The notes below the pieces were generated by a model. It had not been told where the DNA came from. It ran no database searches and worked only from the letters and a program-made list of their open reading frames with translations. Positions 127-30,361 of a stretch of DNA of 31,285 nt are shown one piece after another. Within the stretch, counting starts at the first letter, position 1. The number at the start of each line of letters is the position of its first letter. The stretch is taken from positions 1-31,285 of IMG/VR virus record IMGVR_UViG_3300048908_000034, one strand, 5' to 3'. A program made the position numbers and the translations under genes. This DNA comes from a virus.

Positions 127-620
127 AGGTACCCGCGCAGTGGCGTGAACCTGTCCGGAAGATATCGCTCGCCCGATTTCACGTAGTTCAAGCTCGGAGC
201 CTGAGCAGTGAACGACGTTCCTTCTTTCTTCATGGCGAAATTGATCGCCTCGTAGATCAGCGGACCGACCATCGGAGTCGAGAGATCGTCGCTGCGATAG
301 ATCCGGTATTTGATCGTCGGACGCGTCGTGAAGGTGCCTGCCCCTCGTACACGGTCCAACTCAGCAGACACGACGTCGCCCAGGTCACCGAGATCAATGT
401 TCAGCGAGCTGTCCAGGTCGTCGGTCGCGCCGCTACGCGTAATGCGAAGAGGATAGTACGTGTAGACGTGCGCCGTCCCATCTTCGTGCATCACAGTCAC
501 TCCATCGAACTTGTTGCGAACGATGTAGTAGATCTGCGAGAACGCAGGATGGCTGATTTCCAACAGCTCGAGCTGGGCCACCGAGCGATTGGATGACAGG
601 AAGAAAGTCGCGAGGCTCAT
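123..620 (-). CDS. DUF1833 tail-tip protein
   Basis: The 165-residue product has the DUF1833 family pattern: ISHPAFSQIYYIVRNKFDGVTV near 22-43, then YYPLRITRSGATDDLDSSLNIDLGDLG near 55-81, and a late R-Y-L-P-D-R-F region. The family lies in tail-tip operons before an NlpC/P60 protein, as here. Both ends overlap neighbours as ATGA, so translation is coupled. It is likely an equivalent of gpL-type tail-tip proteins in a different family. Confidence 0.8.
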   Translation of the reverse strand: MSLATFFLSSNRSVAQLELLEISHPAFSQIYYIVRNKFDGVTVMHEDGTAHVYTYYPLRITRSGATDDLDSSLNIDLGDLGDVVSAELDRVRGAGTFTTRPTIKYRIYRSDDLSTPMVGPLIYEAINFAMKKEGTSFTAQAPSLNYVKSGERYLPDRFTPLRGYL

Positions 621-3600: not shown

Positions 3601-4372
3601 CATCCGTGACGATGTACGTGATCAGTGGAACGGGGCCGACGAACCCGCCTACAGGCGTGAACGTGTAATCGCCGTTCTCTTGAATGACGATCGTACCGAC
3701 GCCGCTGATTGTGGTGCCTGTGCCCACAGGATGCGAACCGGAAATCCCGTCGACCGAATAGCTGCCGATCACGGGTACGGTTTCATAATCGAAAGCAAGC
3801 CGATAGATCAGATTCCCTTGCAGTGTATGATTCATCGGCGTAGAGCCGTTCACATAGCTGACGATTGGCGCGCTGTTCGTCCCAACGATCGTCAGCGTGA
3901 GATGCTTCGTGGACAGTCCGCCGCGCGGGTCTTGCGACACGACCGTGAAGACCTCGTGTATGACATCGCCCGTCGTGAGCGCACGAGCGGCAGCGCCGAG
4001 AATGTAGACCCAGAAGCCGTTGTCCTCCCAGTAGAACGTCCCGTACACCGCTTGCGACGTCGTGTTGACAGGGAACGACGTACCTGCGTAGACCACATTA
4101 CCGACAACGATGGGTTCTCCGTCGTTGTCGTAAGCACCCGAGAGCAGATTGCCAGTCAGCTGGAGACCGGTATCGTTGATCGACTGCGAGAAGTCTTGCG
4201 TAACCGGCGCGCTGTTGATATTCAGGTACGTGGTCAGCCAGTGCGCCAGATCGTTGATGGTGTACTTGTACGTCACCCCGTCTTTGACAACGGGGAAAAC
4301 CTCCGCGCCCGTAGGCGTGCCGGTGACGTAGGGAAGCTCAGTGATTCGTTTGATATCCGGAAGCGTCGGCAT
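617..4372 (-). CDS. Large multidomain tail spike with beta-helix, Ig-like and lectin-like domains
   Basis: The 1251-residue product has these regions. Residues 1-50 form a virion-anchor motif (ITELPYVTGTPTGAEVFPVVKDGVTYK). Cadherin/VCBS-like repeats follow to 275. Residues 280-390 form an IPT-like domain. Residues 391-845 form a right-handed beta helix (FYVSKFGNDSTG, GTGWLSFIGYPGED, GNEIGPW). Two Ig-like domains span 850-1035 and a jelly-roll-like domain spans 1040-1251. The IPT plus beta-helix part is homologous to the spike at 25539-27443, and the last domain to the N-terminus of the adhesin at 23971-25542. It probably recognises and perhaps cuts host surface polysaccharide. It starts directly after the stop of the minor tail gene, and its end overlaps the DUF1833 start. 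Confidence 0.85.
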   Translation of the reverse strand: MPTLPDIKRITELPYVTGTPTGAEVFPVVKDGVTYKYTINDLAHWLTTYLNINSAPVTQDFSQSINDTGLQLTGNLLSGAYDNDGEPIVVGNVVYAGTSFPVNTTSQAVYGTFYWEDNGFWVYILGAAARALTTGDVIHEVFTVVSQDPRGGLSTKHLTLTIVGTNSAPIVSYVNGSTPMNHTLQGNLIYRLAFDYETVPVIGSYSVDGISGSHPVGTGTTISGVGTIVIQENGDYTFTPVGGFVGPVPLITYIVTDGVNDEPGYLTISINPSIAGSQPVVLYTDIVSGPVDDGSGDNTGGACMHVYGVRFGDSSGLGTTTKIYIGDIEVGEYITLEADPNAKPGFGRQRMGFRVGALSGATLGKPLHLKVVVGGQDSNTDAVFTPNPGRIFYVSKFGNDSTGVIGDPSQPFRFLQIADRHHGGVYPLMRAGDQIVVRGDGGAEWTDTAYATAWLRFADSAQQGSNPTGDPGTGWLSFIGYPGEDVKYRTTAGNKGGFQGPSQAITGTTGDFVVFSNFRMRWDGGATRDAGGFNMQYNAQRCRVVGNEIGPWIAGDSPVLNCAGITGEGNYVEALGNYIHDIEGTAAQQNHGLYPGTNSYGWTIAYNWIENITGGSHLSFNDSDGGTGTFETPFGTWMGFTNIKIHHNWMEGSAKYSVSFNDVGAQQGQLDARIYNNVIIGTGLPPFHLGTTTATADVVVAFNTIYDCNRTVTGGNAVVRNDGWMHTPGRQWSMYNNIIAFGPNTVPGTGWLNDTTGFSDGIVWSRNLYWVNGDTTSPAPPSSDALAVIGDPKFVDPTVMNLKLQSSSPAVNAGTQALPADLIMADDFTCQLTREPGGAPDIGAFEFNQPTPYIITPPTFTGGPQIGVATSAGVGSWGNSPTSYSRQFRVNGSPAGSAITGTGTASYTPVAGDERKTLVCDVSATNASGTVTYSLNIGTIAVGSGAPVNTALPVVTGSLASGTVSSLSDGSWTGATHGYAYDWMRGSTVLSGETANTYTKVPGDVGFMITGRVYALDPVNGSQVAAAVAVGPITPAPADPVIEQAAVSHSLIPSTNVNFSFGSDVGSGNLILAFMGEWDQAPYNGHYSDSQGHGTSDFTRTTAVNHTAGNPWIGWGYFKTVSSAPYSLTINMDSGAGGAAIAIEVGGLDVTTVMDIPTDSSQGTGTTSISLTATTATTKPNDLVLIGVCVAGTSHTITPDTGWTLVDTVVGTFQAVWIFKKKETATETFAFSATADSSCNWICQSFVVKGS

Positions 4373-4816: not shown

Positions 4817-7800
4817 GCCGATCGCCTACGCGGAGTGAGAGTGTTGTTCTTCAGCGACTTGGAGAAGGTCGAGTTCGGGTTGTTGAGATTCGCGGCGACA
4901 GCAGAGCCCGCCTTGCGCTGGACAGCATCCTCCGCGATCAAGCGGATTTCGTCCCGGCTGATATGTTGAGCGTTGTACGTCTGCGGCGTGCCGTTGTTCT
5001 GCACGGTGATTCGGAGCCCTTGACGCGTCGCATCGCGAACGGCATTCGGAGCAGTAACCACACGCTGTCCGCGATTCATCGACTCCAGGAGCTCGCGATT
5101 GCGGGCGGTCGCATCGGCGTTCACGACGAACTCTTGTCCGTGGACGACGCCCGAGACCTGATCGCGGCCTCCGTTGCCCGTGTATCCGCCGTCCTGGAAT
5201 CCCGCAGCCGAACTGATCGCCATGGCCTCCGATTCCGCGTAGATTGCAGCCAACGCAACAGCCCCGGCATCCGCCCCCGCGCCAAACGTTGCCGCGTTTA
5301 CGAGCGCGGCTGCGGAAGCCCAGGCAGTAGCGACGCCGGCCGCGGCAGCAGCGCTTTCCGTTGCCGTGGTAGCCATCGCTTCCGCCCCCGTCGTTTCCAT
5401 CAGGACTTGGTTCGCAACCCACTGGATGCCGAGCTTGACGACAGCGCTGATGAGCTCGCTCGTGATCTCCTTAGCCACATCCCTGAAGCCTTCCTCCAGG
5501 CTCTTGGCATGTACCGCAGCCTGGCCGACGGCGTTCGCGAAGCCATCCTCCAGGCTACCGAGGAAGTTCGTCAGCGCGTCGTTCATGCCGGCGAGGACCG
5601 TCGTGAAATTCTCCTTCAGACGATTCATCTGCACGAGCGTCGCATCCGCCCAGTCTCCCGATCCGAGTTGCAGACGAGCGTTCGCCGCCTGCACTTGCGT
5701 CTCGATGAACTTCTGCTTCAGGAGCTCGGCCTGCTGAATGCGAAGCTGATCCGCAGTCTTCTCGTCGATCAAACCCTTCTGCCGAAGTTCGTTGATCTGA
5801 TCGTACATGCGCTGGTACTGCGCAATGGTACCCGACACCCAGAGCGTCGTGCCTTGCAGCATCTCGCCGTAATTGCGCGTCAGCACTTCCGCCGCATCCT
5901 GCTGGGTGAAGTTGCTCGTCGTGTCCGACAGCAGTCGCGCGATCGCTTCGAGCTGCTCGCTGTAGTCGCGGCGAGCATTCACGGTCTGCGACATCATCTG
6001 CGTCTCTTGACCGACGATGCGAACCAGGCGGGCGTGCGCCTCCAGCTCTGCGGTCAAGTGCGCCACAGTCTCGTCGCTGATGACGTTGTTCTTCTTGTGC
6101 TGCTCCTCCTGGAATTGAAGAGCGGCCGTGTACGAATCAATCTCGTTCACGTTTCCGTTGAGCGCCTTGTTCTGGAGGTCGAGCGCACGGTAGAACGCAC
6201 CCACGGGATCGAGAATGTCCTTGTAGTGGTTGCGCACCTCACCCATGATCTCGGCAGCGTTGATGTTGTCGATGATGCCAACCTTCACCGCGTCGTTCAC
6301 GATCTGCTGAGCTTTGGCGAAGTCGAGCAGCGCTCCTTCCATCGGCGCGATCGTGTTCAGAAGGCCGCGAAGCTGGTTCTCGGCCTTCTTGAGCAGCTCG
6401 GGGTCGACGTACGGCGTCGGGTTCGTGTGGTCATCCAGGCGCGCGTTACCCGCGGGCTTGGCTTGTGCCGCCCGCGCCTGTGCGATCTTCTGAGCACGAG
6501 CGAAGATGTTGTCGAGCGACTTCTCCAGGTACTGACCTTGGATGTCGAACCCTTCTGTCAGCGACTTGCCCCAGAGTTCCCCGAACGACTCGAACTCCTT
6601 GGCGTCGACATTCATCTTCTCGATGTTGATCGGCGCGATCATGTTGCTGTTGCCGATCAGGTCGCGCAACTTGTTCACGCCACCGATGACGGCGTTCACC
6701 ATCTCTTCGATCTGCGTGGCGACAGCGTTGTAGGCCTGCTTGAAGGCGTTCTCGAACTGTGCGGGGATGCGCTCGAGGACATGCCCGATCATCACGTTCA
6801 CACCGATGATCAGTCCGCCCATCGAATCGAAGACGCGCGCCACGCTTTGCAAGAAGCCCGCGAAGCCTGCCCGCGTATCATCGAAGAAGTGCGGAAACGT
6901 CACGCTCGTGATTTCTTCGAACGAAGCTTTCACAGTGTCGCCGATGCCCGACAGGCTCTCGGCCACCGTTTCGCCGAACGCCTTGAAGACATCGTTGTAC
7001 GTCGTGATGTCATCGATGCCCGCGTTGATCTTGTCACCGACGAGTCCGAAGTACGTCACGAGAGCCGCCACTGCACTTGCAAGCGCGATGAACGGGTTCG
7101 TATTGATCAGAACGAACAGCTTGACGACCTGTGTATAGAACGCCGCGATCGCCCCCGGCGCGAAGGCCACAGCGACAGCAACCCCCAGCGCAATGACAGC
7201 GCTGGCGATCAGATCGATGTTCTTCGCGATGATCTGAGCAGCAGAGGCGAATTGGTTGCTGAAGCCCGAGGCTTCATTCAACTCGCCGATGTACTTGATC
7301 ATCGCGTTGTTGATCACCGTCAGACCTTGTCCGATGGTGGCGCTCGCTTTGCTGAACGCATCCTCCATGGCGGGCTGGCCCTTCAGGAACGCCTCGAAGA
7401 ATTGCTTCGAGGAAAGCGCACCCTGCGCCATCATCCCACGGAGACGCGCCACGCTGCCTCCTGCGCCGTCGATGTTCTTGGCGACAGTCTGCATGATGAC
7501 TGGAAGGCCCTGGTTCACGGAGTTGAACTCCTGCGCGCGAACCTTGCCCGTGCCGAGCATCTGGCCAAGCTGAAGCAGCGCTCCGCTGGCTTGCTCAGCG
7601 GTCGTGTGCTGGATGACGAGAGCCTTGCTCACCCCTTCCGTGAACTTGATCACTTGATTCTGTGAAGCGCCCAGCTCTTGCCCCTGGCGCGCGGCAGCGG
7701 AGTACAGATCCACGATCTGCGTGAAACTCGAGCGCGACTTTTGCGACACGTCGTAGAGCCGCTCCATCACGGCAGCATGCTGCTCGACGGAGTTCGTGGC

Positions 7801-8489: not shown

Positions 8490-9244
8490 CTACTTTGATT
8501 CTACTTTAGATTCCTTGTTACGGTGCTTGAGATACACCATGTCCATCTCTCGAATGAACTGGTGCAAGTCGCTCTTTTGATCACCAGTGATATTCTTGAT
8601 ACGGGCATAGTCCTCTATCTTCGACCAAGGGATGGGCCCTTCACCGAATCCCATGCTGCGCTCCGTTGTCAGGTCAAAAAACGCCAGATAGAACAACTCG
8701 AGCCCTGGGAACAGCTCGGGAGCGTTCGCGATAGCATTCGGGAGTGGCCGGCGCTCCCGAATGCAGGCGTTGATGATGAACTGTTCGGTCGGGCCCTGCT
8801 CCAGCGCGTAGAGCAGGACGGCCGTCAGTTTCCCGCGTCGGCCTGGTTGATCTCCGCGCGGAAGAGCGCCGCGTTGTTGGAGTTCGACAGAACCTCGCTG
8901 TACAGGTCGGGAAGGTCGGTGAACAGCTTGATCGCGTTCTCGCGCGTGAACTCAAGTTCGTTGCCGTCCTCGCCTTCGATGTTCTCCCATCCGAGCAAGC
9001 AGCCGTCGACGAAGACTTCCATCATCTTCGCTTCGAAAAGCTTGCGGTTCATCGTCTCGGTCTGGATCTGCCGGCGATGCGGCTTCAGGATCCGCTCACC
9101 TGCCTTGAGGTACTTCTCGTTCGAGCCGCCGGCGCGTGCGACCTGCATCGCCATGATGGCGCCTTTGCTGTTCGGACCGAATTCGATGCGAACGCCTTGT
9201 TGTTCGACGTTCTTGTCCGACTTGTACTGCTTGTAGAGGGTCAT
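8490..9244 (-). CDS. Tail assembly chaperone, -1 frameshift fusion (GT-like)
   Basis: A -1 shift at GGGAAAC (8828-8834) fuses the 139-residue short form to 112 further codons (LTAVLLYALEQGPTEQFIINA ... to the stop at 8490), giving 251 residues. The second frame has no good start of its own; an in-frame TTG at 8696 has no role in this reading. The extension reads as a natural protein throughout, including the stretch between the two apparent genes. As in lambda, the T domain would contact tail tube subunits while G coats the tape measure. Confidence 0.85.
8825..9244 (-). CDS. Tail assembly chaperone, short form (G-like)
   Basis: The 139-residue product lies between tube and tape measure, and GGAG precedes the ATG by 5 bases. 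It is helical at the C-terminus (TRENAIKLFTDLPDLYSEVLSNSNNAALFRAE). The gene ends at a TGA directly after a GGGAAAC slippery heptamer, so a fraction of ribosomes should produce the longer form. Gene order and the frameshift site identify it as the equivalent of lambda gpG, which binds tape measure protein during tail assembly. Confidence 0.85.
   Translation of the reverse strand: MTLYKQYKSDKNVEQQGVRIEFGPNSKGAIMAMQVARAGGSNEKYLKAGERILKPHRRQIQTETMNRKLFEAKMMEVFVDGCLLGWENIEGEDGNELEFTRENAIKLFTDLPDLYSEVLSNSNNAALFRAEINQADAGN
8828..8834 (-). other. -1 ribosomal frameshift slippery site GGGAAAC
   Basis: In the zero frame the codons are GCG GGA AAC TGA, so the heptamer G GGA AAC fits the canonical X XXY YYZ pattern and the zero-frame stop follows immediately. 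After slippage the ribosome reads GGG AAA and continues with CTG ACG GCC. It resembles the GGGAAAG site of lambda. A stimulatory structure downstream was not established. Confidence 0.85.
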
Positions 9245-9286: not shown

Positions 9287-9311
9287 CCATTATGGCACGT
9301 ACCGGCCGCGA

Positions 9312-10829
9312 TCACATCGCAGCGTTCGGCAGGTACGGGAAGAACATCATCAGCGTCGTGTACCCGAACGGAGACATGGCCGCGTTCGTGTCCAGCGGCA
9401 GCGTGATCGGCTTGTCCTGTTCCACGGACAGACGGCCGTCGCCCAGGGCAATGAGCGGCAAGTCGAGCAGGGTGCCCTTGTTCGACTTGCCGAAGAACAC
9501 GTCGATCGTCACATCGCTGTTGTTGCGCACCGCCTTGGTCGCATTGATGTCGGCGAAATAGGCGGTCAGCTTGCCGGAGACTTCGAACGTGCCCGTGGAC
9601 GCATTGAAAGCACCGAGCACACCGACGGCCTTGTTCGGCGTCACGTTGTTCGAGATAGTGATGTTCAGGTCCGTGGAGTACGCGAACAGCGGCGAAGGCG
9701 ACGACGTACCCGTGCCGACCAACGCAAGCTTGATTCGGCCGACGTCCGAGGAAGTGTTGATCGCGTCCTCGGACACGTCGGTGACACGGGTACCGGACTT
9801 CAGGCCATCCACGCCGGTGTGCTGCTCGTTGTCCAGCGCGACGAAGCTCAGGTCCACGTTGACCTTATCGGCTTGCGGCACGTTGAACGTCAGCTCGTTC
9901 GGGATCGCACCCACGAGGTATTCGGCCATCGTGCCGTCGTCATCGTTGCCGAGTTGGCGCTCGATGTTGTACGAGCGGCGAACGATGTTGCTGTAGACCG
10001 GTTCGTTGCGGAGCACGTTGCCGAAGTACAGCTGAACGGTCTTGCCCGTGCCTGCGTCCGTCACGGCGGTGAAGTCGGTCTTGTCCAGCGTGATGCTGTG
10101 CGCAGCGATGGCGACGTTCGCGATGCGGCAGAGACCGACGTTGGCACCCAGTTGCGTTGCCGTGGTGTCGCCGCCCAGGAAGAACCATTCACCGGGGATC
10201 AGCCCGAGCGTCGTGAAGTCCAGCGTCGTGGACAGGAGCGTGACCACACCTGCCGTGACGTTCATCGTGATGTCGCCCGACGCGCCTTGCTGGCCGATCA
10301 CCTCGAGCTTGGCAGTCGCCGGAGGGCTGGCTTCCGCGGTCAGCGTCTGCGTCACCGTAACGCCGGTAGAATCCGCAGCCGACACGTTCTTCACGCCGTT
10401 GTTGGCGGCAGCGCTGAACGCGCTGGCAAGCACCAGGGCACCCACGCGGAACGTGCCGGGGTTGCTGCCGTAGGAATACTTGTTCGCCGCGACGCCGGAG
10501 CACGTCAGCGCCGCACCGTTCATCGGCTGCGTGGCGGTCTTCTGGCGCAGGTTCGCGAAGAAGAACCCCTGAAGCAGACGCGTCAGGTTGTTCATCGTGA
10601 AGTCCTGGTTCAGGCCGCCGGACGCGTCCAGATCCACGGTCGCGCCCTTGAGGCGCTGACGCGTGTTGTTGATCGGGCTTCGCGCCACCTGCTTGGTCTG
10701 CCCGCCGAAATCCTTGTAGGTGTTCGGTTGGAGCGGATACCAGACCGGCGTCGTCGGAAGAGTCTTGATGCTTTGCTCTTCCGCGAACGCCAGCCCGGTC
10801 AGGTTCGAGTCTTGCTTGGTCACGGTCAT
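9312..10829 (-). CDS. Major tail tube protein
   Basis: At 505 residues this is about twice the length of lambda-type tube proteins. The N-terminal part (NTRQRLKGATVDLDASGGL) and the C-terminal part (from about 285, YNIERQLGND, ELTFNVPQ, and SKLTAYFAD-like strands) carry the tube-fold features. Residues of roughly 90-270 look like inserted beta domains that may project from the tube. It is the first gene of the tail set and is followed by its own terminator, consistent with high expression. The assignment rests on context and pattern. Confidence 0.8.
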   Translation of the reverse strand: MTVTKQDSNLTGLAFAEEQSIKTLPTTPVWYPLQPNTYKDFGGQTKQVARSPINNTRQRLKGATVDLDASGGLNQDFTMNNLTRLLQGFFFANLRQKTATQPMNGAALTCSGVAANKYSYGSNPGTFRVGALVLASAFSAAANNGVKNVSAADSTGVTVTQTLTAEASPPATAKLEVIGQQGASGDITMNVTAGVVTLLSTTLDFTTLGLIPGEWFFLGGDTTATQLGANVGLCRIANVAIAAHSITLDKTDFTAVTDAGTGKTVQLYFGNVLRNEPVYSNIVRRSYNIERQLGNDDDGTMAEYLVGAIPNELTFNVPQADKVNVDLSFVALDNEQHTGVDGLKSGTRVTDVSEDAINTSSDVGRIKLALVGTGTSSPSPLFAYSTDLNITISNNVTPNKAVGVLGAFNASTGTFEVSGKLTAYFADINATKAVRNNSDVTIDVFFGKSNKGTLLDLPLIALGDGRLSVEQDKPITLPLDTNAAMSPFGYTTLMMFFPYLPNAAM

Positions 10830-13856: not shown

Positions 13857-14915
13857 TCAGGACTCGCGCGTCTTCAGCCGCGCGATCTTGATCTGCTTGC
13901 GCTCCGGATAGACGCGCATCCACGAATCCAGGTGGGCCAGGTTGCCCGTGGTCGCAGCATTCGACGGACCGCCCGACGCCGGGGAAGCCACGGCGTACTT
14001 GTGGCCGACGGGGTGGAGACACCACTCGAGGCGGCTGTAGAGCTGCTCTTGACCGCCGCCGTTGCCAGCGGACGGCAGGCGGAAGATTTCCGCCGGGACG
14101 CGCGGGGAACCGACGCCCAGGCGAACCGCGCCCATGCCGAACAGCCAGGTCTCGTACACGCCGCCGGAGGCAGGCATGCCGTCGTCCACGATCACGACAC
14201 GACCGAGGAACGTCGGAATCCCTTGCTGGCCCGGGGCCGCATTCGGGTAGGCGTTCGTGTTGGTCGAGTCCGGGATGAAGTCGATCAGGTTGTTCTTCAG
14301 CATCCGCATGAAGACCACGGAGTGGACCATGCAGAGCTTGATCGAGTCCATCGAATCGCCCATGGTGCCGCAGGCGTCGACGAAGGCTTCTGCCGTGAAG
14401 TTCGTCACGCCGTCAGTGAACGAGCTGCCGGAAACGTCCCAGGTCAGATCGTTCTGAACGTGCTCCGAACCGGCCGGGGCCGCGGCGTTGTCGGCGAAGA
14501 TGCCGGTCAGCGTGGCGACGAACGCAGCCTGCTGGCGGCGAACCCAGTAGTCCGACACGCGGCTCGCGATGGCGTTCATGGGATCGGAGCCAGCCAGCGC
14601 GGCGGCCAGATCGGCAGAGGCCCAGCTGTTGTTGCGCGAGAGGCGAACCTGGATCTCGGTCGCGGTGCCGATCTTGTTCGGGCTCGAGGTGCCCGCCGTG
14701 TCGCTGGACACATTGTCGACGTCGTTGTCCAGATCCTTCCACGACGGTTCGTTGGCCGTCAGGCCGCCGCCGGCGAGGAAAGCGTCGAGGGCCGCGTCAC
14801 GGGTCAGGGCGCCGGAGCGCACGAGTCGCGACTTCTGTTCGGTGAGCTGCTGGACGTACGGGGCGAAGATCGCCGGGACGACGACGTCCGAAATGGCGGT
14901 GGTGCCGGAAGCCAT
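13857..14915 (-). CDS. Major capsid protein
   Basis: The 352-residue product follows the scaffold gene and is flanked by its own promoter-like element and a strong terminator, as expected for the most abundant virion protein. Its composition (Ala/Gly/Asn-rich, N-terminal helix IFAPYVQQLTEQKSRL, later a long helix around DYWVRRQQAAFVATLTGIFADN) fits an HK97-fold coat protein. I cannot assign the subfamily by eye. The ATG has AGGAG about 9 bases upstream. No N-terminal prohead-protease domain is seen, in line with a separate scaffold. Confidence 0.85.
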   Translation of the reverse strand: MASGTTAISDVVVPAIFAPYVQQLTEQKSRLVRSGALTRDAALDAFLAGGGLTANEPSWKDLDNDVDNVSSDTAGTSSPNKIGTATEIQVRLSRNNSWASADLAAALAGSDPMNAIASRVSDYWVRRQQAAFVATLTGIFADNAAAPAGSEHVQNDLTWDVSGSSFTDGVTNFTAEAFVDACGTMGDSMDSIKLCMVHSVVFMRMLKNNLIDFIPDSTNTNAYPNAAPGQQGIPTFLGRVVIVDDGMPASGGVYETWLFGMGAVRLGVGSPRVPAEIFRLPSAGNGGGQEQLYSRLEWCLHPVGHKYAVASPASGGPSNAATTGNLAHLDSWMRVYPERKQIKIARLKTRES

Positions 14916-14948
14916 GGTAGGTTTCTCCTGTAGATGGCATCAAGTTGA

Positions 14949-15020
14949 CTAGACTCGAAGCTCACCCCATGGCTCGCATTCGACTGGGAAGACGGCGTAC
15001 AGACCCGGTCCGTATCGCAT
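14949..15020 (-). CDS. Possible 23-aa leader ORF before the capsid gene
   Basis: A 23-codon frame runs from the ATG at 15020 to a TAG at 14951-14949, in the capsid mRNA leader. The peptide (MRYGPGLYAVFPVECEPWGE...) reads naturally but is too short to judge. The ATG falls at the expected transcription start. A 5-bp hairpin (GGTCC/GGACC, 15008-15026) covers its beginning. It may be a chance ORF. Confidence 0.2.
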   Translation of the reverse strand: MRYGPGLYAVFPVECEPWGELRV

Positions 15021-15027
15021 GGACCTG

Positions 15028-15057
15028 ACTATAGACCGTCTTCCACTTTGATCACAA
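15028..15057 (-). promoter_or_regulatory. Promoter of the major capsid gene
   Basis: On the minus strand TTGTGA (15057-15052), an 18-base spacer and TATAGT (15033-15028) resemble a sigma-70 promoter, about 110 bases before the capsid ATG. The -35 region overlaps a perfect 7-bp inverted repeat, TGATCAC and GTGATCA with 3 bases between (15049-15065), which could be an operator. The TGATCAA element also occurs at the two adhesin promoters. Confidence 0.55.
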
Positions 15058-15071
15058 GGTGATCACCGCAC

Positions 15072-18788: not shown

Positions 18789-20370
18789 GACTGGTACCCT
18801 TGGTCTTTCCGGCCTTGCCGCCGATAGCCTTCGAGAGAACTTGGTAGCGCGTTTCGTCGCCGATATGGTCTTCCGACTCAGTATCGACGTCGTCTGGATC
18901 TTCCTCGTCCCGAGGCAGCACGGGGAAGAGCTTGATAAAATATTTGCAGGTGTTGAACGTGAACAACCCGGGGCGCATCCGCGGAACACGCATCTTAGTT
19001 TTGCCGTCCGCGGCGAGCACGTATTGTGCCCGAGCATTGTCCAGATAATTGCGGACTTTCTCCCACCCGTGTTTCCGACTGCCAGGACTCTTGTCAGATC
19101 GAATCCAGGTCACGCCTTTGTGCGTTGTGCCATTGTCTAGGCGCACAGACGCAGACATATCAACGGCAATGCAGTTTCCGTTCTCGGTGTCCCAGATGCT
19201 GTTGTCCGCGGGCCCCGGCTGAACTCTTCCATCCAGCCCCATCGCCATTTCACGCTCAACGATCCCCTTCGCGATGTCTTTCGCAAGCATACGCAGACCT
19301 TGATTGGTCTTGCCCGTGGTGCCGTACCATTCACCGATGCGGAACAGATCACCCTTGATTGTGCTGCGCCACCTGCCGTCTGCAAGCTTGACATCACTTC
19401 CATCGGACTCAGCCCACCATCCTACACTGAACGGCTTGCTTGATCCCCAGTCGAAGGAACGATCGATACGCCACGTATGAGGAATGTCGAACGGTTCGAC
19501 TACATGATCCTGATCATCCCATTGCTCACCGAACATGCCGCCCGCGGCGATATTCCAATCACCTTGAAGCCAAGCCTTCCGCTTGTTCGGATCACTGATC
19601 GTTTCGAGCTCAGCGATGTATTCAGGACTCAGGTAGATATTCTCCTTGTAGGAGCCGAACAAATGAACCTGAGTCTTTACGATGTCTTCGCGTTGTTGAG
19701 TGCGAGGATTGAAGACATTGATCGTGCGGCGAACAATCTTGCCCATCGGGGCGACGTTGATGAAACGATCCTTGACCCAGGTATGGCCGACGCCGTGCGG
19801 GTTGCACGTTGCGAAAACCTGGAGAGGAAGTTCCGGCAGGAAGTATTCGATCATCTTCCCGTTTTCCTTTCGGTACTGCGGGTAATCCTGAGGCCGGAAT
19901 GAACTCCGGTTGCAGGACATCATCGCATCGAAAAGAATATCGGTCGGAAACTTCGTCAGCTCATTCCAACCAATGAAAGGAAACTCCTGGCCGTGGTACC
20001 CCCAGTAATCGGTGTCCTTCTTGACTGCGCGAAATAGCAGCTCTTCTCCAGTTGGCCACACCCACCGGTAATCGCTCTTGCTGCTCATGAACCGGGCGTC
20101 GCCCTTGGTCTCACCCTCTTCGCGGATCTCTGGAAACCAGCGCATCGACTTGGAGACCAAGTCGTCCAAGTTCTTGTACTCACGGTCGAAGATGATGCCA
20201 CGCCAATGCCGCCCGTACCCCTGACCGACATTGCGCCTGAAACGGATCAACTGGGCGTCGGTCTTTCCCGGACCACGAGTACCGTGATAGACAATGACGT
20301 CGGCAGGACAGCTAAGCGCGAGCGTCTGCGAGCCGGGGAGGGGTCGCCAGGCGACTTTAGTGTCGAGCAT
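18778..20370 (-). CDS. terL: Terminase large subunit (packaging ATPase and nuclease)
   Basis: The 530-residue product has Walker A HGTRGPGKT at residues 29-37, a Walker B-like strand FIGWNE at 132-137 with Glu137 as the catalytic base, and coupling motif FATCNP at 186-191. An RNase H-like nuclease domain follows: Asp307 in DRSFDWG, then GPADNSIWD with Asp389. This is the two-domain packaging motor that cuts concatemers and drives DNA into the prohead. The Walker B Asp is replaced by Asn (WNE rather than DE), a known variation among phage terminases. The last residues are Gly/Lys-rich. The portal gene starts inside its 3' end. Confidence 0.95.
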   Translation of the reverse strand: MLDTKVAWRPLPGSQTLALSCPADVIVYHGTRGPGKTDAQLIRFRRNVGQGYGRHWRGIIFDREYKNLDDLVSKSMRWFPEIREEGETKGDARFMSSKSDYRWVWPTGEELLFRAVKKDTDYWGYHGQEFPFIGWNELTKFPTDILFDAMMSCNRSSFRPQDYPQYRKENGKMIEYFLPELPLQVFATCNPHGVGHTWVKDRFINVAPMGKIVRRTINVFNPRTQQREDIVKTQVHLFGSYKENIYLSPEYIAELETISDPNKRKAWLQGDWNIAAGGMFGEQWDDQDHVVEPFDIPHTWRIDRSFDWGSSKPFSVGWWAESDGSDVKLADGRWRSTIKGDLFRIGEWYGTTGKTNQGLRMLAKDIAKGIVEREMAMGLDGRVQPGPADNSIWDTENGNCIAVDMSASVRLDNGTTHKGVTWIRSDKSPGSRKHGWEKVRNYLDNARAQYVLAADGKTKMRVPRMRPGLFTFNTCKYFIKLFPVLPRDEEDPDDVDTESEDHIGDETRYQVLSKAIGGKAGKTKGTSHGT

Positions 20371-20884
20371 CGCTCGCGAGCTGGGCCTGGCTCGCTACAG
20401 CCGCCGCCTCCCAGTCATTGATGTTCGCAATGGTGGGAACCATCAGGACGCCACCCTTGTGCGTATGTTCATTCTTGACCTCGACAGGCTTGTCCATGCC
20501 GAGGATGGAAGCCATCTTGGCGGCCGCCTGTACACGCGCTGCACCCGTAGAGCCCTCGTTCTGCATCTCGCGGCGGAGCACCGCACGAACGGTCTGCTTG
20601 TCGTACTCCTCCATCTTGCCCATGTCGACGGGTGCGTGCTTCAGATCCTGGATCTTACGCTGCACATACGGCTCGTTCATGAACCGTGCAGCGTACTCTT
20701 TCGCGAATGCTTCCTGAAAGCCGCAGCGAAGCGCCGCCTTGATCGGATGTTCATCGACAAGAAATTCCGCACAGAAGAGATCGCGGAGCGCTTTCTCCCG
20801 ATCGGAGAGTTCCGGTGCCATTGCGACACTCAACATCCATTGAGTGTCAAATTTCGAATCGTCGTCGGTATCGTGGGAGGCCAT
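20357..20884 (-). CDS. terS: Terminase small subunit
   Basis: The 175-residue product lies directly upstream of the large terminase, overlapping it by 14 bases. Residues 25-80 (LSDREKALRDLFCAEFLVDEHPIKAALRCGF...) resemble the helix-turn-helix DNA-binding domain of small terminases. The central region has long helices suited to ring oligomerisation. The N-terminus is acidic and Asp-rich. TerS binds the packaging start site and stimulates the large subunit's ATPase. Assignment rests on position, domain pattern and length. Confidence 0.8.
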   Translation of the reverse strand: MASHDTDDDSKFDTQWMLSVAMAPELSDREKALRDLFCAEFLVDEHPIKAALRCGFQEAFAKEYAARFMNEPYVQRKIQDLKHAPVDMGKMEEYDKQTVRAVLRREMQNEGSTGAARVQAAAKMASILGMDKPVEVKNEHTHKGGVLMVPTIANINDWEAAAVASQAQLASDARH

Positions 20885-20889
20885 GCCTC

Positions 20890-20933
20890 TACTCCGATAG
20901 ATTGATCAGGACCTTTCCTGACATTGATCGGAG
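20890..20933 (-). repeat. Nested inverted repeats upstream of the small terminase gene
   Basis: On the minus strand CTCCGAT ... ATCGGAG (7 bp) encloses a second repeat CAGGA-AAGG-TCCTG (5 bp). Two GATCAAT direct repeats, one of them in a TGATCAA, lie inside. The position before terS could mark a promoter/operator or a terminase recognition site. Neither is proven. Confidence 0.35.
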
Positions 20934-20937
20934 TATA

Positions 20938-20984
20938 AACGCGCGCAGGTCATCAACGGTAGACGAGATAATCCTGCGCGCGTT
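20938..20984 (-). terminator. 12-bp perfect inverted repeat after Rz1, probable terminator
   Basis: AACGCGCGCAGG and CCTGCGCGCGTT are perfectly complementary, 12 bp, with a 23-base loop, starting one base after the Rz1 stop on the minus strand. The stem is GC-rich but the following bases (TATACT) are not a T-run, so termination may be partial or need a factor. A protein-binding site is an alternative, because TATACT could also serve as a -10 box for the terminase operon. Confidence 0.45.
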
Positions 20985-20985
20985 G

Positions 20986-23970: not shown

Positions 23971-25542
23971 TTAAGCCCACCAGAATCCGATGGGTTGATT
24001 GCTGGCTGCCAGATTGTATACGGTCACCGTCCCGGTGGATCCGTAACCTTGGCCAGCCACACCGACCTTGTATGTGAACTGCGATACCGTCGGCGGCATC
24101 GTATAGCTTCCGTCGGTGTTCACAGTAACAGAGCCCGAGCCTACGACGTTGCCCCATGCGACTTGATTGCCGCTGGCCACATCGCCTCCGCCCGTTGCCT
24201 GCACGCGGAACGCGGCAGTCGGGTTCGGCGTCCCAATCGTCACCGTCTGCCATCCAGCAGGAGGGTTGAACGTGATCGAGAACGCATTGGACGCGCCACC
24301 GGTGGAATCAGTGGCGACAACGGTTTGCGCACCGTACAGGTTGGTACCGAGCGAGCTCGCAGCAGCGCTGACCGCGGTGTTGGCCCAGGTGAGCCCCGAT
24401 TGAGTTGCCGTGCCCCCGTTCCCGTCGCTGAGAACCACCGTTCCCGCACTCGCTCCGAAGTTCGTGCCGGTCAGGGCGATCGAACCGCCATCCACCACGG
24501 GGCTTGGCGTGACATTCGTGATACTCGGCGGCAACGCATGCGTGGTGAACGAACCCGTGACGGCATTGGAGTCGCCAGCAGTCGTGTTCTGCACCACCGC
24601 GTAATTGTAGGTGGTGCTGGCAGTCAGGCCCGAGCCGGGGATCGTCTTGGCGCCCGTAGAGGTCACCGCGACGTTGCCGCTGCTCACGGCTGTCGCGCCG
24701 CTCGCATTCTTGCCTGTCTTGATCTGCGCCTTGGTGATACCGGTCAGCGAGGCTGTGTCGACCACCATGTACATGGTACCCGAGCCGGTGTCGGTCGTTG
24801 CACCGACGTTGGCCGTGGTCGAAGTAGCGATCGTACCCGAGGGGGTGGGCGTGCTCAGGACAGCCGCAGGCGCTCCGGTCGTGCCGAACGTGACAACGAT
24901 GGATGTCGCCTCGGTTGTACCCGACCAACTCCAAGTGGCCGATTGCGCACCAGTAGACGTGACTTCCTTGTAGGCGAACTCGACACCACTGCCGGTGTTG
25001 GTGTCCTGGACAACCGCGAGTGACGTGTAGCCCGAGGGCGGGTTGGTCAAACCGATGTTCGAATTGCTGGTCGCGAACGCGCAAGCGTGACCAACGATCA
25101 CCAGCTCATTGGCCTGTGACGTAGTCGCAGACGTCACCGTAAGCGTGGTGGCGCCTGCACTGGTATTGACGGCAATCTTGTCAACCGGCGCAGACGTTGC
25201 ATATCCGCCGTATTCGGCCAGGATCGTCCGCGCGTAGGTAGATGCCGGATAGTTCAGCTTCAGTGAGGCTGTTCCAGACGGCGCGTTTTGCAGGTAGTAG
25301 ACGCTGACGCCCGTGGTCCAGCCCGGGTGGCCTGAACTGTCCACCCCGCCTGCGTGCCCAGCCTCCTGCCATCCGGCAGTGACCGAAGTCGAATCGAGGC
25401 TCGGGACACTCGTCAAGCCTGCGTTGATCGCCCACGAAGATACAGCAATGACGAGATTGCCAGACGTGACGCTGGTCAGCGTCGTCGTCTGCGTGGTGAC
25501 CGTCGTCGACGAGTTGAGCGTGTTTTTCTGAACGAAGCTCAC
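23971..25542 (-). CDS. Adhesin with lectin-like, FN3/Ig-like and IPT/TIG domains
   Basis: This 523-residue all-beta, Ser/Thr/Gly-rich protein has four regions. Residues 25-220 form a jelly-roll-like domain (SGNLVIAVSSW, ELVIVGHA, VEFAYKEV) also found at the C-terminus of the 1251-residue spike. Residues 225-335 form an FN3-like domain. Residues 339-430 form an IPT/TIG domain (PSITNVTPSPVVDGGSIALT). The C-terminal region from 430 is cadherin-like. It probably binds host surface sugars as part of a fibre or baseplate appendage. The start is GTG, overlapping the preceding stop as GTGA, with GGAG 8 bases upstream, so it is translationally coupled to the beta-helix gene. Confidence 0.75.
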   Translation of the reverse strand: MSFVQKNTLNSSTTVTTQTTTLTSVTSGNLVIAVSSWAINAGLTSVPSLDSTSVTAGWQEAGHAGGVDSSGHPGWTTGVSVYYLQNAPSGTASLKLNYPASTYARTILAEYGGYATSAPVDKIAVNTSAGATTLTVTSATTSQANELVIVGHACAFATSNSNIGLTNPPSGYTSLAVVQDTNTGSGVEFAYKEVTSTGAQSATWSWSGTTEATSIVVTFGTTGAPAAVLSTPTPSGTIATSTTANVGATTDTGSGTMYMVVDTASLTGITKAQIKTGKNASGATAVSSGNVAVTSTGAKTIPGSGLTASTTYNYAVVQNTTAGDSNAVTGSFTTHALPPSITNVTPSPVVDGGSIALTGTNFGASAGTVVLSDGNGGTATQSGLTWANTAVSAAASSLGTNLYGAQTVVATDSTGGASNAFSITFNPPAGWQTVTIGTPNPTAAFRVQATGGGDVASGNQVAWGNVVGSGSVTVNTDGSYTMPPTVSQFTYKVGVAGQGYGSTGTVTVYNLAASNQPIGFWWA

Positions 25543-27443
25543 GTACCCACTCCTTCATACGCGCCGATCCACTTGTGGGCACCTGCGCCGCCTCGAATGA
25601 TCCCCAGGAAGTCCGTAACGGCTGCCTGCACCTCGGACTGAACCATATCCGCTCCAGCAGTACGCGTCAGGTTCGGCGGAGAAGAGGTGAGATCCGTGAA
25701 GTTCGGATTGACCGACTTACCGAAAGCCGAGTCCTTCGACGGAACACCCGTGAGCCCACCCGAAGTCTTGAAATCCCACCAGATGTTCTCTTTCATCTTG
25801 ATGGCAGAATCTCCAGCCCCGCCGTTGGCGTACCAGCTGTTCGAGGTCGAGCGCGATCCGTTGGCCGCGAAAATGTTGTGGTCGATATTGACCACACCCA
25901 GGTCGGCGAACGCCTCGGTGAAGACAGCCGCGTCAGCGATCGACCCGCGCGTGTTCCAACCGTAGCAGGTATTGCAGTAGATGTTGATCGTGAGGGTGAC
26001 GTTGGACGTTTGCAGCCGGATGGGGTTGAGTCCGATGTTCACCATCACGTTGTTGAAGACGTCGCACGACTGCGACGAATCGCCGACGTTGACGCCGTAC
26101 TTGAACGTGTTCTCGATGTAGTTGTGGTGAACGCTGTTGCCGGTGAAATACTGCGTATCGCCCGCGCCCGTGCCCTGCCAATTGAACTGGATGCCGGTGC
26201 CTGCGTAGATGTCGTGGCACCAGTTGTAGCAGATTTCGGTGTTCTTGGTGGCGCCGATGAATGCATCACCAGCATTGCCCGCTCCGCCCATGTAGATGCC
26301 GTGGGCTTCCTGCGTCAGACCGTTGATGCCGAAGCATTCGTTGCCCGCGAGGAAACCGTTCTGCCCTTGACCAGTGATCGATGCGGAGCGGTTGCCGCCC
26401 GCGATCGTGCTGGGCCAAGGGCCGAGCTTGTTGCCGACCGCGCGCCAGTAGTCCCCACCGTTCTGAAGATAGACCATACCGCCGTCGCTCGCCGCGCCAG
26501 CAGTCAACTCCATCGAGAAGTTGGAGATCTGAATGTACTTGCCCCAGCCTGCGGCCGCGAAGCTCGATTCAGAGCCGTGAATCCCGCCGCCTTGGCTGAA
26601 CTTGCCGTGAGGATCTTCACCGGGGTAGCCGTAGAAGGTGATCCAGCCGGTATTCGGAGAACTCGTCGGCGTGGTTCCGCCCCCGACCGCAGGGGACCAG
26701 CTGCCCGCTTGAGCCCGCGCGAGGCGAAAGTATCGGCTGTTGTATCCGTTCTGGCTGGTGTGATCCGTTCCATCGGTGTTGCGCAAGACGACCGTATCAC
26801 CCGGGCCAAAATTGCTCTTGCTGCACAGACCAGTGAACGTCGAGCCCGTCCAGACCTGCGGGTACTTGAACGGCTTGGTCGGATCGTTCGCTGCACCAGT
26901 CGACTCGTTGCCGATGCTGGGATCGACATACCAGAAATTTCCGACCTGCACGATGAACACGCCGGTCATGATGTTCGAATCAACACCATTGACGACGAGC
27001 TTCGCATCGAGCGATCGACCGGTGACCATGTTCCCGCCGAGGTTCCCCGGCTGGACACAGACCTCCACGAGCTGATTGCGCACGAAGGTCGGCGAAGTCT
27101 TCAGGTGCCAGTAGGCGGCGACTTCATGCCAGCCGGTGTCCGTACCCGTCGATCCGCCGAGCGGATCGCGGATCATGACCTTGCAGCCGTTGGTCTGGCC
27201 GAGGTTGGAAGCCCGTCCAGGCGAATAGCAGAAAAAGCGAATCCAGTCGCCGCGATTGTTGATACCGCCGACGAGCTTGATACCCTTCAGGTCGGTGAAG
27301 ACGATTGTCGGAGTAAGCTGAACTCCCGACGGCTTGTCGCCATCGGGATAGATGCTGTTCAGCAGACCATCGAAATTCGCAACCGGCGGAGCGTTGTGCG
27401 CCGAGTTCGAAAAGATGATCGAGACGGCATTCTTGACTGCCAT
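25539..27443 (-). CDS. Right-handed beta-helix tail spike, paralogue of the 1251-aa spike
   Basis: The product has 634 residues. Residues 1-165 form an IPT-like beta domain; from 168 (NFWYVDPSIGNESTG) to about 560 the sequence shows the periodic N-x-I/V-x-x-N pattern of pectate-lyase-type parallel beta helices, for example ISNFSMELT, CYNWCHDIY, VHHNYIENT and VFNNVMVNI. Landmarks NTGWITFYGYPGEDP (264-278), GNKLGPW and HGIYMGG recur in the 1251-residue protein at 617-4372, so the two are homologous. Beta-helix spikes commonly cleave or bind capsule and O-antigen sugars. The ATG at 27443 has an AAGGA ribosome site 7 bases upstream, and the gene begins 9 bases after the fibre stop. Confidence 0.85.
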   Translation of the reverse strand: MAVKNAVSIIFSNSAHNAPPVANFDGLLNSIYPDGDKPSGVQLTPTIVFTDLKGIKLVGGINNRGDWIRFFCYSPGRASNLGQTNGCKVMIRDPLGGSTGTDTGWHEVAAYWHLKTSPTFVRNQLVEVCVQPGNLGGNMVTGRSLDAKLVVNGVDSNIMTGVFIVQVGNFWYVDPSIGNESTGAANDPTKPFKYPQVWTGSTFTGLCSKSNFGPGDTVVLRNTDGTDHTSQNGYNSRYFRLARAQAGSWSPAVGGGTTPTSSPNTGWITFYGYPGEDPHGKFSQGGGIHGSESSFAAAGWGKYIQISNFSMELTAGAASDGGMVYLQNGGDYWRAVGNKLGPWPSTIAGGNRSASITGQGQNGFLAGNECFGINGLTQEAHGIYMGGAGNAGDAFIGATKNTEICYNWCHDIYAGTGIQFNWQGTGAGDTQYFTGNSVHHNYIENTFKYGVNVGDSSQSCDVFNNVMVNIGLNPIRLQTSNVTLTINIYCNTCYGWNTRGSIADAAVFTEAFADLGVVNIDHNIFAANGSRSTSNSWYANGGAGDSAIKMKENIWWDFKTSGGLTGVPSKDSAFGKSVNPNFTDLTSSPPNLTRTAGADMVQSEVQAAVTDFLGIIRGGAGAHKWIGAYEGVGT

Positions 27444-29048: not shown

Positions 29049-29081
29049 GGCTGATCAGAGTAGGAAGGATCAACGCGACCA

Positions 29082-29106
29082 ATACTACCCTGATCAAACT
29101 TGATCA
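29082..29106 (-). promoter_or_regulatory. Candidate promoter/operator of the tail fibre gene
   Basis: The element TGATCAA-N12-TAGTAT matches the one at 30269-30293. Here TGATCA occurs twice as a perfect inverted repeat (TGATCAA and TTGATCA separated by 2 bases, 29091-29106), and a third TGATCA lies at 29052-29057. The site overlaps the stop codon of the preceding gene and lies about 34 bases upstream of the fibre ATG, which has no clear Shine-Dalgarno sequence. Each TGATCA contains a GATC Dam site. Confidence 0.5.
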
Positions 29107-30270
29107 AGTTGCTGAAATGCGAGCCGCTCCGAACTTGCTTTCGATGAGTGCGCGGCGAGTGTTCCCGCCCGTGGACAGAACGCGCCCGGCGCCGTCCCGC
29201 GCGGCGTTCAACGTGGGATCGTTCCAAGGGCCGTAGTTGTTCGGGCCCTTACTGATCTTCTCCCACATCGTCCAGCCGATCGACCCGCCGGTCGCGCTGT
29301 TGAGATCGTCCAGCCTCCGCCCCAGGAGCGAGCTGTCCGCGTCACTTGTCAGCTTGGTGCCCGCCTGTTGGCAGAACACCGGGTAACCCGCCGACGTCCG
29401 TGTGTCCGTGAAATCTTTGACCGCCAGGGCCCAGGTCGCATCCGACTGCGTCATGATGTTGTCGAGCGCATCCGCGGTCAGGATGATATTGGACGTTGGC
29501 CACACCGTGCCCTGGAGCATCGGATCGTCGATCTTGGCATGCTGGTAGGCGTTGCCGCCCAACATGAAGATCAGATCCGGGTCGTCGAGCAGCCAGGCGT
29601 TCATGCACGCCATGTAGATCGCATTGGTGGCGACCTGCGTCAGCCCCACGGATAGATGGTTCGGCTCCACGAGAGGCTCCACGATGTCAACGAGACCGTG
29701 GAGGGCGCGCAGTAGAAGCCGACCCCGATTGACATGCGCGGGGAATTTCTGGGCCTTCCCCAGCGTCGTGTAGAAGTTCTGACCTTGCTGCCAGACGGAT
29801 CCGTCGTACAGGGAACAGAAGCCCTGGGTGGCGGCATCCTGATTGCCGTTCTGCCCGCAGTTCGAGTCCATCGCAAGGATGGTCTTCAGTCCAGCGGATT
29901 TCGCCCGCTGGAAGGTCAGCTTGACTTCCGCCAGGTAGGTGGGGTCCATGTCCCCGAAGCTGCCGATGGATTCTGCATCCATCGTCGGCGCGGTGTACGT
30001 GTTCCCGCCGTGGCCGCCTCCCCAGGCCCGCACCATGAGCCGGACCGCATTGGCGCCCGCTGCCGCGTCGTCCGCGCTGTCGCTGGGCTTCCACAGCTCA
30101 CGCTGGCCGTAGACGTACCCGCGTCCGATCCAGGGGTTGCCGTTCTCGTCGACGATGTTCTTGCCGACGCGGCGCATCCGCCCCGCACGCCTGCCCGGCG
30201 TCGTGTAGGGCTTCGTGTAGGTGTTGATGTACGGAGCAGCGCGGCGGAGGATTTGAGACATGCTGCGCAT
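29104..30270 (-). CDS. Glycoside-hydrolase-like (GH5-type TIM barrel) virion protein
   Basis: The product has 388 residues from the ATG at 30270, or 385 from the ATG at 30261. From residue 35 on it reads like a GH5-type (beta/alpha)8 glycosidase: an opening strand with DENGNPWIGRG, GANAVRLMVRAWGGGHGG at 72-89, KTILAMDSN at 129-137, VEPLVEPN at 197-204, LIFMLGGNAYQ at 233-243, PVFCQQAG at 297-304 and GWTMWEKIS at 332-340. GH5 enzymes need a Glu in an NEP-like motif as acid/base and a second Glu as nucleophile. Here the EP-containing segment is present but the neighbourhood is unusual, so activity is uncertain. The first 30 residues are basic and Tyr/Thr-rich, possibly an anchor. It heads the adhesin block, so a capsule or polysaccharide depolymerase in the tail is likely. 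It could also be a non-catalytic binding domain. Confidence 0.7.
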   Translation of the reverse strand: MRSMSQILRRAAPYINTYTKPYTTPGRRAGRMRRVGKNIVDENGNPWIGRGYVYGQRELWKPSDSADDAAAGANAVRLMVRAWGGGHGGNTYTAPTMDAESIGSFGDMDPTYLAEVKLTFQRAKSAGLKTILAMDSNCGQNGNQDAATQGFCSLYDGSVWQQGQNFYTTLGKAQKFPAHVNRGRLLLRALHGLVDIVEPLVEPNHLSVGLTQVATNAIYMACMNAWLLDDPDLIFMLGGNAYQHAKIDDPMLQGTVWPTSNIILTADALDNIMTQSDATWALAVKDFTDTRTSAGYPVFCQQAGTKLTSDADSSLLGRRLDDLNSATGGSIGWTMWEKISKGPNNYGPWNDPTLNAARDGAGRVLSTGGNTRRALIESKFGAARISAT

Positions 30271-30282
30271 ACTAGCGCAGCA
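30261..30282 (-). repeat. 8-bp perfect hairpin over the -10 box and start codon
   Basis: TGCTGCGC and GCGCAGCA form a perfect 8-bp inverted repeat with a 6-base loop. The loop is exactly the TAGTAT box and one arm abuts the ATG at 30261. It could be an operator overlapping the promoter or, if transcribed, a structure hiding the start codon. Which of these applies is inference. Confidence 0.5.
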
Positions 30283-30293
30283 CTGTTTGATCA
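30269..30293 (-). promoter_or_regulatory. Candidate promoter/operator of the glycosidase-like gene (TGATCAA-N12-TAGTAT)
   Basis: On the minus strand TGATCAA (30293-30287) is followed after exactly 12 bases by the -10-like TAGTAT (30274-30269). The same element with the same spacing precedes the tail fibre gene at 29082-29106, and both are preceded by CAACT. It lies directly after the helicase-operon terminator, where a new promoter is expected. If TAGTAT is a -10 box, the transcript would begin at about the ATG at 30261, giving a leaderless or nearly leaderless mRNA. The -35 match to sigma-70 is poor, so a phage-specific factor is possible. Confidence 0.5.
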
Positions 30294-30298
30294 GTTGT

Positions 30299-30352
30299 AA
30301 AAAAGACCCCGCGCAGACCTATGGCAACTACGAAGGAGGAGGCTGCGCGGGG
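30299..30352 (-). terminator. Intrinsic terminator of the helicase operon
   Basis: Read on the minus strand, a perfect 10-bp stem (CCCCGCGCAG pairing with CTGCGCGGGG, at 30343-30352 and 30307-30316) encloses a 26-base loop and is followed by TCTTTTTT. This is a textbook factor-independent terminator. It separates the helicase/69-aa operon from the adhesin genes. The other strand lacks a T-run after the stem, so it is unidirectional. Confidence 0.9.
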
Positions 30353-30361
30353 TGGAGGAAA

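Follow-up and report, generated by a model that had tools for sequence, protein, structure and literature searches.

A TGATCA word about 30 bases upstream of predicted capsid, tail-fibre and glycosidase-like transcript starts is probably a regulator site in a Nipunavirus-like phage

At the middle promoters of phage T4 a MotA box of 9-10 bp, centred at -30 and located 12 +/- 1 bp from the -10 element, replaces the -35 element (PMC2988021). In the late promoters of the T4 genes e, soc, 49 and I-TevI the -10 region lies inside the 5' arm of an inverted repeat, and T4 provides the precedent of a late gene whose start site is masked in read-through RNA (PMC3014915, PMC2988022). For phages of the Queuovirinae family no mapped promoters were found in the literature searched, most subscription journals being outside its scope. 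A further arrangement is that of the lambdoid morons, inserted accessory genes with their own terminator and promoter.

We analyzed a virus record of 31,285 bases, called the window in the following, which is a partial genome lacking about half of the genome; all its recognisable genes are located on the minus strand. Judged from sequence comparison, the phage is related to the Queuovirinae (Nipunavirus-like). The head-packaging module terS-terL-portal-scaffold-MCP is homologous to and syntenic with that of this group, the major head protein is 70% identical to its counterpart in Nipunavirus NP1 (Queuovirinae), and the large terminase shows about 77% identity to those of the contigs L100 and L177, the two closest relatives. 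The early region, where the 7-deazaguanine (preQ0) gene cluster of this group would be sought, lies beyond the window. Three large genes within 617-4372 and 23971-27443 (1251, 523 and 634 aa) had no PHROG match; the first of them gave a cadherin-like Pfam match below the threshold. The evidence for all promoter readings given here is computational.

The element TGATCAA-N12-TAGTAT occurs exactly twice in the window, at 29082-29106(-) (P2) and 30269-30293(-) (P1), and in 0 of 100 shuffled sequences, in agreement with the first-pass annotation, which had described a repeated element with an identical 12-base spacing. The 5' flanks of both copies (CAACTTGATCAA at the fibre gene and CAACTGATCAA at gene 29104-30270) differ in a single base. 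The genes behind the two copies had been taken for adhesin genes. This is only partly borne out: the gene under P2 is tail-fibre-like, and the product of the gene under P1 shows a weak, sub-threshold match to a GH5 cellulase. No homologue of the latter protein was found in viral contigs, phages or the PDB, so that P1 has no orthologue for comparison. When viral contigs were searched with the exact element of P2, five matches were obtained, all of them non-homologous and judged to be due to chance, and no other homologous contig. The transcript of P2 is predicted to start at about 29075, that of P1 at 30262/30261, at the ATG at 30261, and that of the capsid promoter near 15021. If the start is located 7 nt after the -10 box, the P1 mRNA would be leaderless. 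Both accessory genes lack a Shine-Dalgarno sequence and have the start context ATGnCTCAAAnCCTCC in common (29048 and 30261), which is present nowhere else on the coding strand.

Positions of promoter features and associated genes in the window
Feature	Position	Strand	Remarks
P1 TGATCA box	30288..30293	-	begins 19 nt upstream of -10
P1 -10 box TAGTAT	30269..30274	-	forms the entire loop of the inverted repeat
P1 inverted repeat TGCTGCGC[TAGTAT]GCGCAGCA	30261..30282	-	encloses -10; shuffle p=0.010
Intrinsic-terminator-like stem CCCCGCGCAG...CTGCGCGGGG, then TCTTTTTT	30297..30352	-	directly upstream of P1; sequence reading
Gene under P1	29104..30270	-	weak GH5-like protein; ATG 30270 or 30261
P2 outer TGATCA	29101..29106	-	19 nt upstream of -10; includes stop codon of upstream gene
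P2 inner TGATCA	29091..29096	-	9 nt upstream of -10; end of left arm of inverted repeat
P2 -10 box TAGTAT	29082..29087	-	coding strand
P2 inverted repeat TGATCAGGGTAG[21]CTACTCTGATCA	29052..29096	-	z = -3.7; shuffle p=0.003
Gene under P2	27453..29048	-	tail-fibre-like; PHROG minor tail/tail fibre matches
P3 (terS) -10 box TATACT	20932..20937	-	TATACTCCGATCAA conserved in NP1, L100, L254, L116
P3 inverted repeat TACTCCGAT[28]ATCGGAGTA	20890..20935	-	right arm holds terS Shine-Dalgarno; shuffle p=0.017
P3 TGATCA	20903-20908	-	in loop of inverted repeat, downstream of -10
Terminase small subunit gene (terS)	20357..20884	-	
Paired TGATCA boxes TGATCACCTTGTGATCA at capsid promoter (P4)	15049..15065	-	start 32 and 21 nt upstream of -10; kept in L100
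Capsid promoter TTGTGA-N18-TATAGT	15028..15057	-	-35 and -10
Capsid inverted repeat GGAAGACGGTCTATAG[26]CTGTACGCCGTCTTCC	14987..15044	-	-10 in left arm; shuffle p=0.007
Major head protein gene	13857..14915	-	
Possible fifth copy TGATCG-N14-CATAAT	9289..9314	-	upstream of gene 8825-9244; weak; -10 not conserved in relatives
Gap before capsid gene	14916-15071		
Gap before terS	20885-20985		
Gap before fibre gene	29049-29103		
Gap before gene 29104-30270	30271-30361		

The hexamer TGATCA was counted 26 times in the window, 7 times in the four promoter gaps (403 bp in sum) and 19 times elsewhere. The earlier estimate of about seven copies in roughly 400 intergenic bases was therefore accurate, whereas that of about sixteen in the remaining sequence was too low. 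Since the total corresponds to the expectation of a maximal-order Markov model (28.6), the placement of the word alone is unusual, and a genome-wide over-representation was rejected; the high score of TGATCA in dinucleotide shuffles is due to the GATC-rich coding sequence. In the four gaps, a set chosen in the first-pass annotation, TGATCA is the top hexamer with 7 copies, where the remaining sequence would predict 0.25 (Poisson p=1.1e-8, or about 2e-5 once some 2,080 strand-collapsed hexamers are corrected for). Two caveats apply to these copies: the one at 29101-29106 shares bases with the stop codon of the preceding gene, and those at 29091 and 29052 form both arms of a single inverted repeat. 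Pooling all ten gaps leaves TGATCA in first rank (6e-6 before correction). The maximum reached in 3,000 dinucleotide shuffles within the gaps was 2.

The GATC site within TGATCA had led to the proposal that Dam methylation could modulate these promoters; such control would resemble the phage Mu mom or pap-type switches. Four GATC sites are indeed located inside 55 bp at P2, but GATC is dense everywhere in the window (304 sites, as expected), and the 9 sites in the gaps correspond to an enrichment of only about 2.3-fold, with 7 of the 9 lying within TGATCA. The enrichment is thus specific to TGATCA and not to GATC, which leaves control by Dam unsupported; a Dam-only model was rejected on these site counts, and we consider any tuning of the promoters by methylation most improbable.

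On the coding strand the hexamers TAGTAT (two copies), TATAGT (one) and TATACT (one) were found within the four gaps and nowhere else in the window, which makes them credible -10 boxes; a TAnnnT hexamer in promoter position, as expected for sigma-70, is present in all four gaps. The upstream distance from the -10 box to the first base of TGATCA is 19 nt for both P1 and P2 and 21 nt for the capsid gene. The coding strand has 33 -10-like hexamers, and in three of them TGATCA was found at -19 to -21 compared to 0.08 expected, a test which is partly circular as two of the three define the motif. In a consensus scan the capsid gene alone had a sigma-70 pair (TTGTGA-N18-TATAGT), and at P1 and P2 no sigma-70-like -35 was present at 16-18 nt. 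The poor -35 match noted earlier for the two promoters on the adhesin side was therefore confirmed, and the lack of a -35 makes an activator or an altered polymerase plausible at P1 and P2. One candidate of the latter kind would be an alternative sigma factor of phage or host, which reads TGATCA as a -35 element with a gap of 12-15 bp to a TAnnnT -10 box. It would account for the constant distance of 19-21 nt between TGATCA and the -10 box and for the poor sigma-70 -35; but the -10 hexamers fit sigma-70, the capsid promoters of more distant relatives are of the ordinary sigma-70-like type TTGCnn-N17/18-(TGn)TAYATT without TGATCA, and phages of this family are not known to encode a sigma factor. 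A dedicated sigma factor appears very unlikely.

The first-pass annotation had placed TGATCA twice at the capsid promoter and once before terS, and these copies were recovered as the paired boxes and the single P3 copy of the table. For the capsid promoter, 107 non-redundant upstream regions of capsid genes from related phages were compared. TGATCA at -21 was found only in the window, L100 and L177, and in each of the three a second copy is located at -32 or -34. In L100 and L177 TTGTGATCA is kept at -21 and the spacer sequences have diverged. A search of viral contigs for the capsid TGATCA pair returned L100 and one unrelated contig, and TTGTGATCA-N14..16-TAYAGT was absent in the records of 18 other relatives. 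L109/L183, a more distant relative, has TGATCA on either side of the -10 box, at -9 and +8. A structural-gene cassette inserted between the scaffold and capsid genes of L177 opens with TGATCA-N14-TAACAT, so that, together with the capsid orthologues, six promoters in three phages have TGATCA at an equivalent position, orthologous and analogous ones, of which two define the motif and three are orthologous; the decisive conservation comes from two relatives. The proposal that the repeated element is a promoter element is supported by -10 boxes confined to gaps, by the fixed position of TGATCA and by the retention of this position at the capsid promoters of two relatives. TGATCA, about 30 bases before the predicted transcript starts of the capsid, tail-fibre and glycosidase-like genes, is probably a landing site for a regulator.

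The L177 cassette (L177:13764-17228) carries the repeat AATAACACTGATCA at both ends, which suggests recombination at promoter ends. In the capsid mRNA leader (window 14900-14985, minus strand) the block GCCATGGGGTGnGnnTTCGAGT...AACTTGA, located between the promoter hairpin and the Shine-Dalgarno sequence, is conserved in about 60 of the 107 relatives. The flanks of this block often look pairable, and the start codon of the capsid gene could be a pairing partner of CCATGG; Rfam contained no match to the block, and no consensus structure was obtained when RNAalifold was applied to a rough alignment.

Our preferred reading, to which we assign an even chance, is that TGATCA is a clade-specific regulator site at about -30, placed over a sigma-70 -10 box at late promoters. 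A sequence-specific regulator encoded by the phage or the host would occupy roughly the positions -31 to -26, where it covers or replaces the -35 element, and the host RNA polymerase with its main sigma factor would read the -10 box, which is TAGTAT before the fibre and glycosidase-like genes and TATAGT before the capsid gene. At P1 and P2, which have no -35, the regulator would act as a MotA-like activator, and at the capsid promoter the TGATCA box would overlap a usable -35 (TTGTGA). The second TGATCA copies at a distance of 10-13 bp may allow cooperative binding. Like a moron, each accessory gene would carry a separate promoter, in one case preceded by a separate terminator. Against this reading, the terS copy is located downstream of the -10 box and not at -30, the box is limited to three contigs, with more than 100 other capsid promoters having no TGATCA, the exact P2 element is absent from other homologous contigs, and in the window, itself about half of the genome, no candidate for the regulator was found. 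When compared by eye with the consensus sequences of the host regulators FNR, CRP, LuxR and IHF, the TGATCA site showed no match. L177 encodes at 5290-5658 an NrdR-like zinc-ribbon protein between the helicase and RusA genes, with homologues in L103 and L101 and no homologue in the window.

Repression through the TGATCA site is the main rival of the activator reading. TGATCA would then be a repressor operator, active for example in the early phase or in superinfection, which blocks the -35 region until the repressor is lost and the late genes are turned on. Such a role would fit the position of TGATCA over the -35, the paired copies of P2 and of the capsid promoters, which are 10-13 bp apart in helical register, the flanking copies around the -10 box of L109/L183, and the terS copy, which suits a repressor better than an activator. 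On the other hand, P1 and P2 have no -35 and would need compensation, TGATCA is single at P1, and no repressor gene was found in the window. We regard repression as rather unlikely.

The terminator-like stem upstream of P3 resembles the stem and T run at P1. Upstream of terS the relatives retain TATACTCCGA at the promoter, and the ACTCC within it is the complement of GGAGT in the Shine-Dalgarno sequence of this gene; RNA folding gave no support for a switch.

All four -10 boxes of the window are located within the left arm or the loop of an inverted repeat, an arrangement that is met again, in varying form, in relatives. At P2 the outer TGATCA is the centre of a 14-bp palindrome AACTTGATCAAGTT, and a third copy at 29052-29057 forms the right arm of the repeat and ends 3 nt before the ATG; at the capsid promoter TGATCAC-CTT-GTGATCA is a hairpin in itself. 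Among the 107 capsid upstream regions, 82 contain a strong inverted repeat (6 of 107 after shuffling). The repeat encloses the -10 box in 27 of them (0 shuffled) and begins at most 20 nt after it in 21 further regions (1 shuffled). Since the -10 boxes of the family are coupled to TTGCnn or a similar sequence at 17-18 bp, they are likely true promoters. The arms differ between relatives, with compensating changes at many positions, which indicates that pairing and not sequence is kept; the pair counts were drawn from repeats chosen for pairing and describe the variety, and the shuffle comparison is the independent test. These repeats raise the question whether the hairpin was selected and the TGATCA copies are partly its by-product. 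A self-complementary hexamer arises readily in hairpin arms, inverted repeats around the -10 box occur throughout the family, hairpins include the capsid pair as well as the copies at 29091 and 29052, and in L183 each of the arms around the -10 box contains TGATCA. In most hairpins of the family, however, the arm sequences differ from TGATCA, and the copies at P1, the outer position of P2 and the L177 cassette lie outside the arms of the -10 hairpin and still at -19 to -20. A by-product origin of the word seems to us quite unlikely.

A combination of both features is possible, although we place it below an even chance: the late promoters of the family would be embedded in hairpins as a class, with the -10 box in the loop or 5' arm and the pairing kept, and the clade of the window would have added a TGATCA activator box at -30. 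If true, the hairpin would be a structural promoter feature, involved in processing or insulation of read-through RNA or, as an extruded DNA hairpin, in promoter opening. A different role would follow if read-through RNA folded the promoter hairpin and thereby hid the start codon, so that only the RNA from the own promoter is translated, as in the T4 gene e and I-TevI type. RNAs from the own start and read-through RNAs were folded and compared to controls with shuffled upstream sequence. At P2, where the right arm reaches almost to the ATG, the predicted accessibility was 0.26 in the read-through RNA versus 0.69 (p=0.025), and at P3, where an arm covers the Shine-Dalgarno sequence, start hiding gave p=0.06. 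In contrast, p was 0.35 at both P1 and the capsid promoter and 0.76 for 17 terS relatives combined, and upstream terminators make read-through less likely at P1. With only P2 below 0.05, sequestration of the start site is not the general explanation and was rejected as a general mechanism; as the reason for these hairpins it is highly improbable.

The TGATCA box predicts a regulator that binds it, and the repeats predict late promoters with the -10 box inside a hairpin. Accessory fibre and glycosidase-like genes bearing the regulatory word of the capsid gene would be timed with virion assembly, and such timing would show how accessory cassettes plug into the lytic programme.

In their layout P1 and P2 match the T4 middle promoters, with TGATCAA-N12-TAGTAT, an element at about -30 and no -35 at 16-18 nt. 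The sequences found at the position of the MotA box, ACTTGATCAA and AACTGATCAA, do not correspond to its consensus WWWTGCTTTA; moreover, the capsid promoter of the window keeps a -35, and the genes concerned are structural. No MotA_activ match was obtained in the 31-kb fragment of a partial genome, where the control search was equally silent. With a different box sequence, the promoters are T4-middle-like at most and not members of this class. With the T4 gene e type they share the -10 box in an inverted repeat, but sequestration of the start site is unsupported beyond P2, and at the capsid genes a distance of about 70 nt or more separates the hairpin and the start codon. Relatives among the Queuovirinae (NP1, PaMx25 type) have sigma-70-like capsid promoters at the same place, with the -10 box in an inverted repeat and a spacing of 17-18 bp, but differ in having a TTGCnn -35, a TAYATT -10 and no TGATCA. 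Compared to the lambdoid morons, the accessory genes of the window would carry a late-type promoter in common with the capsid gene.
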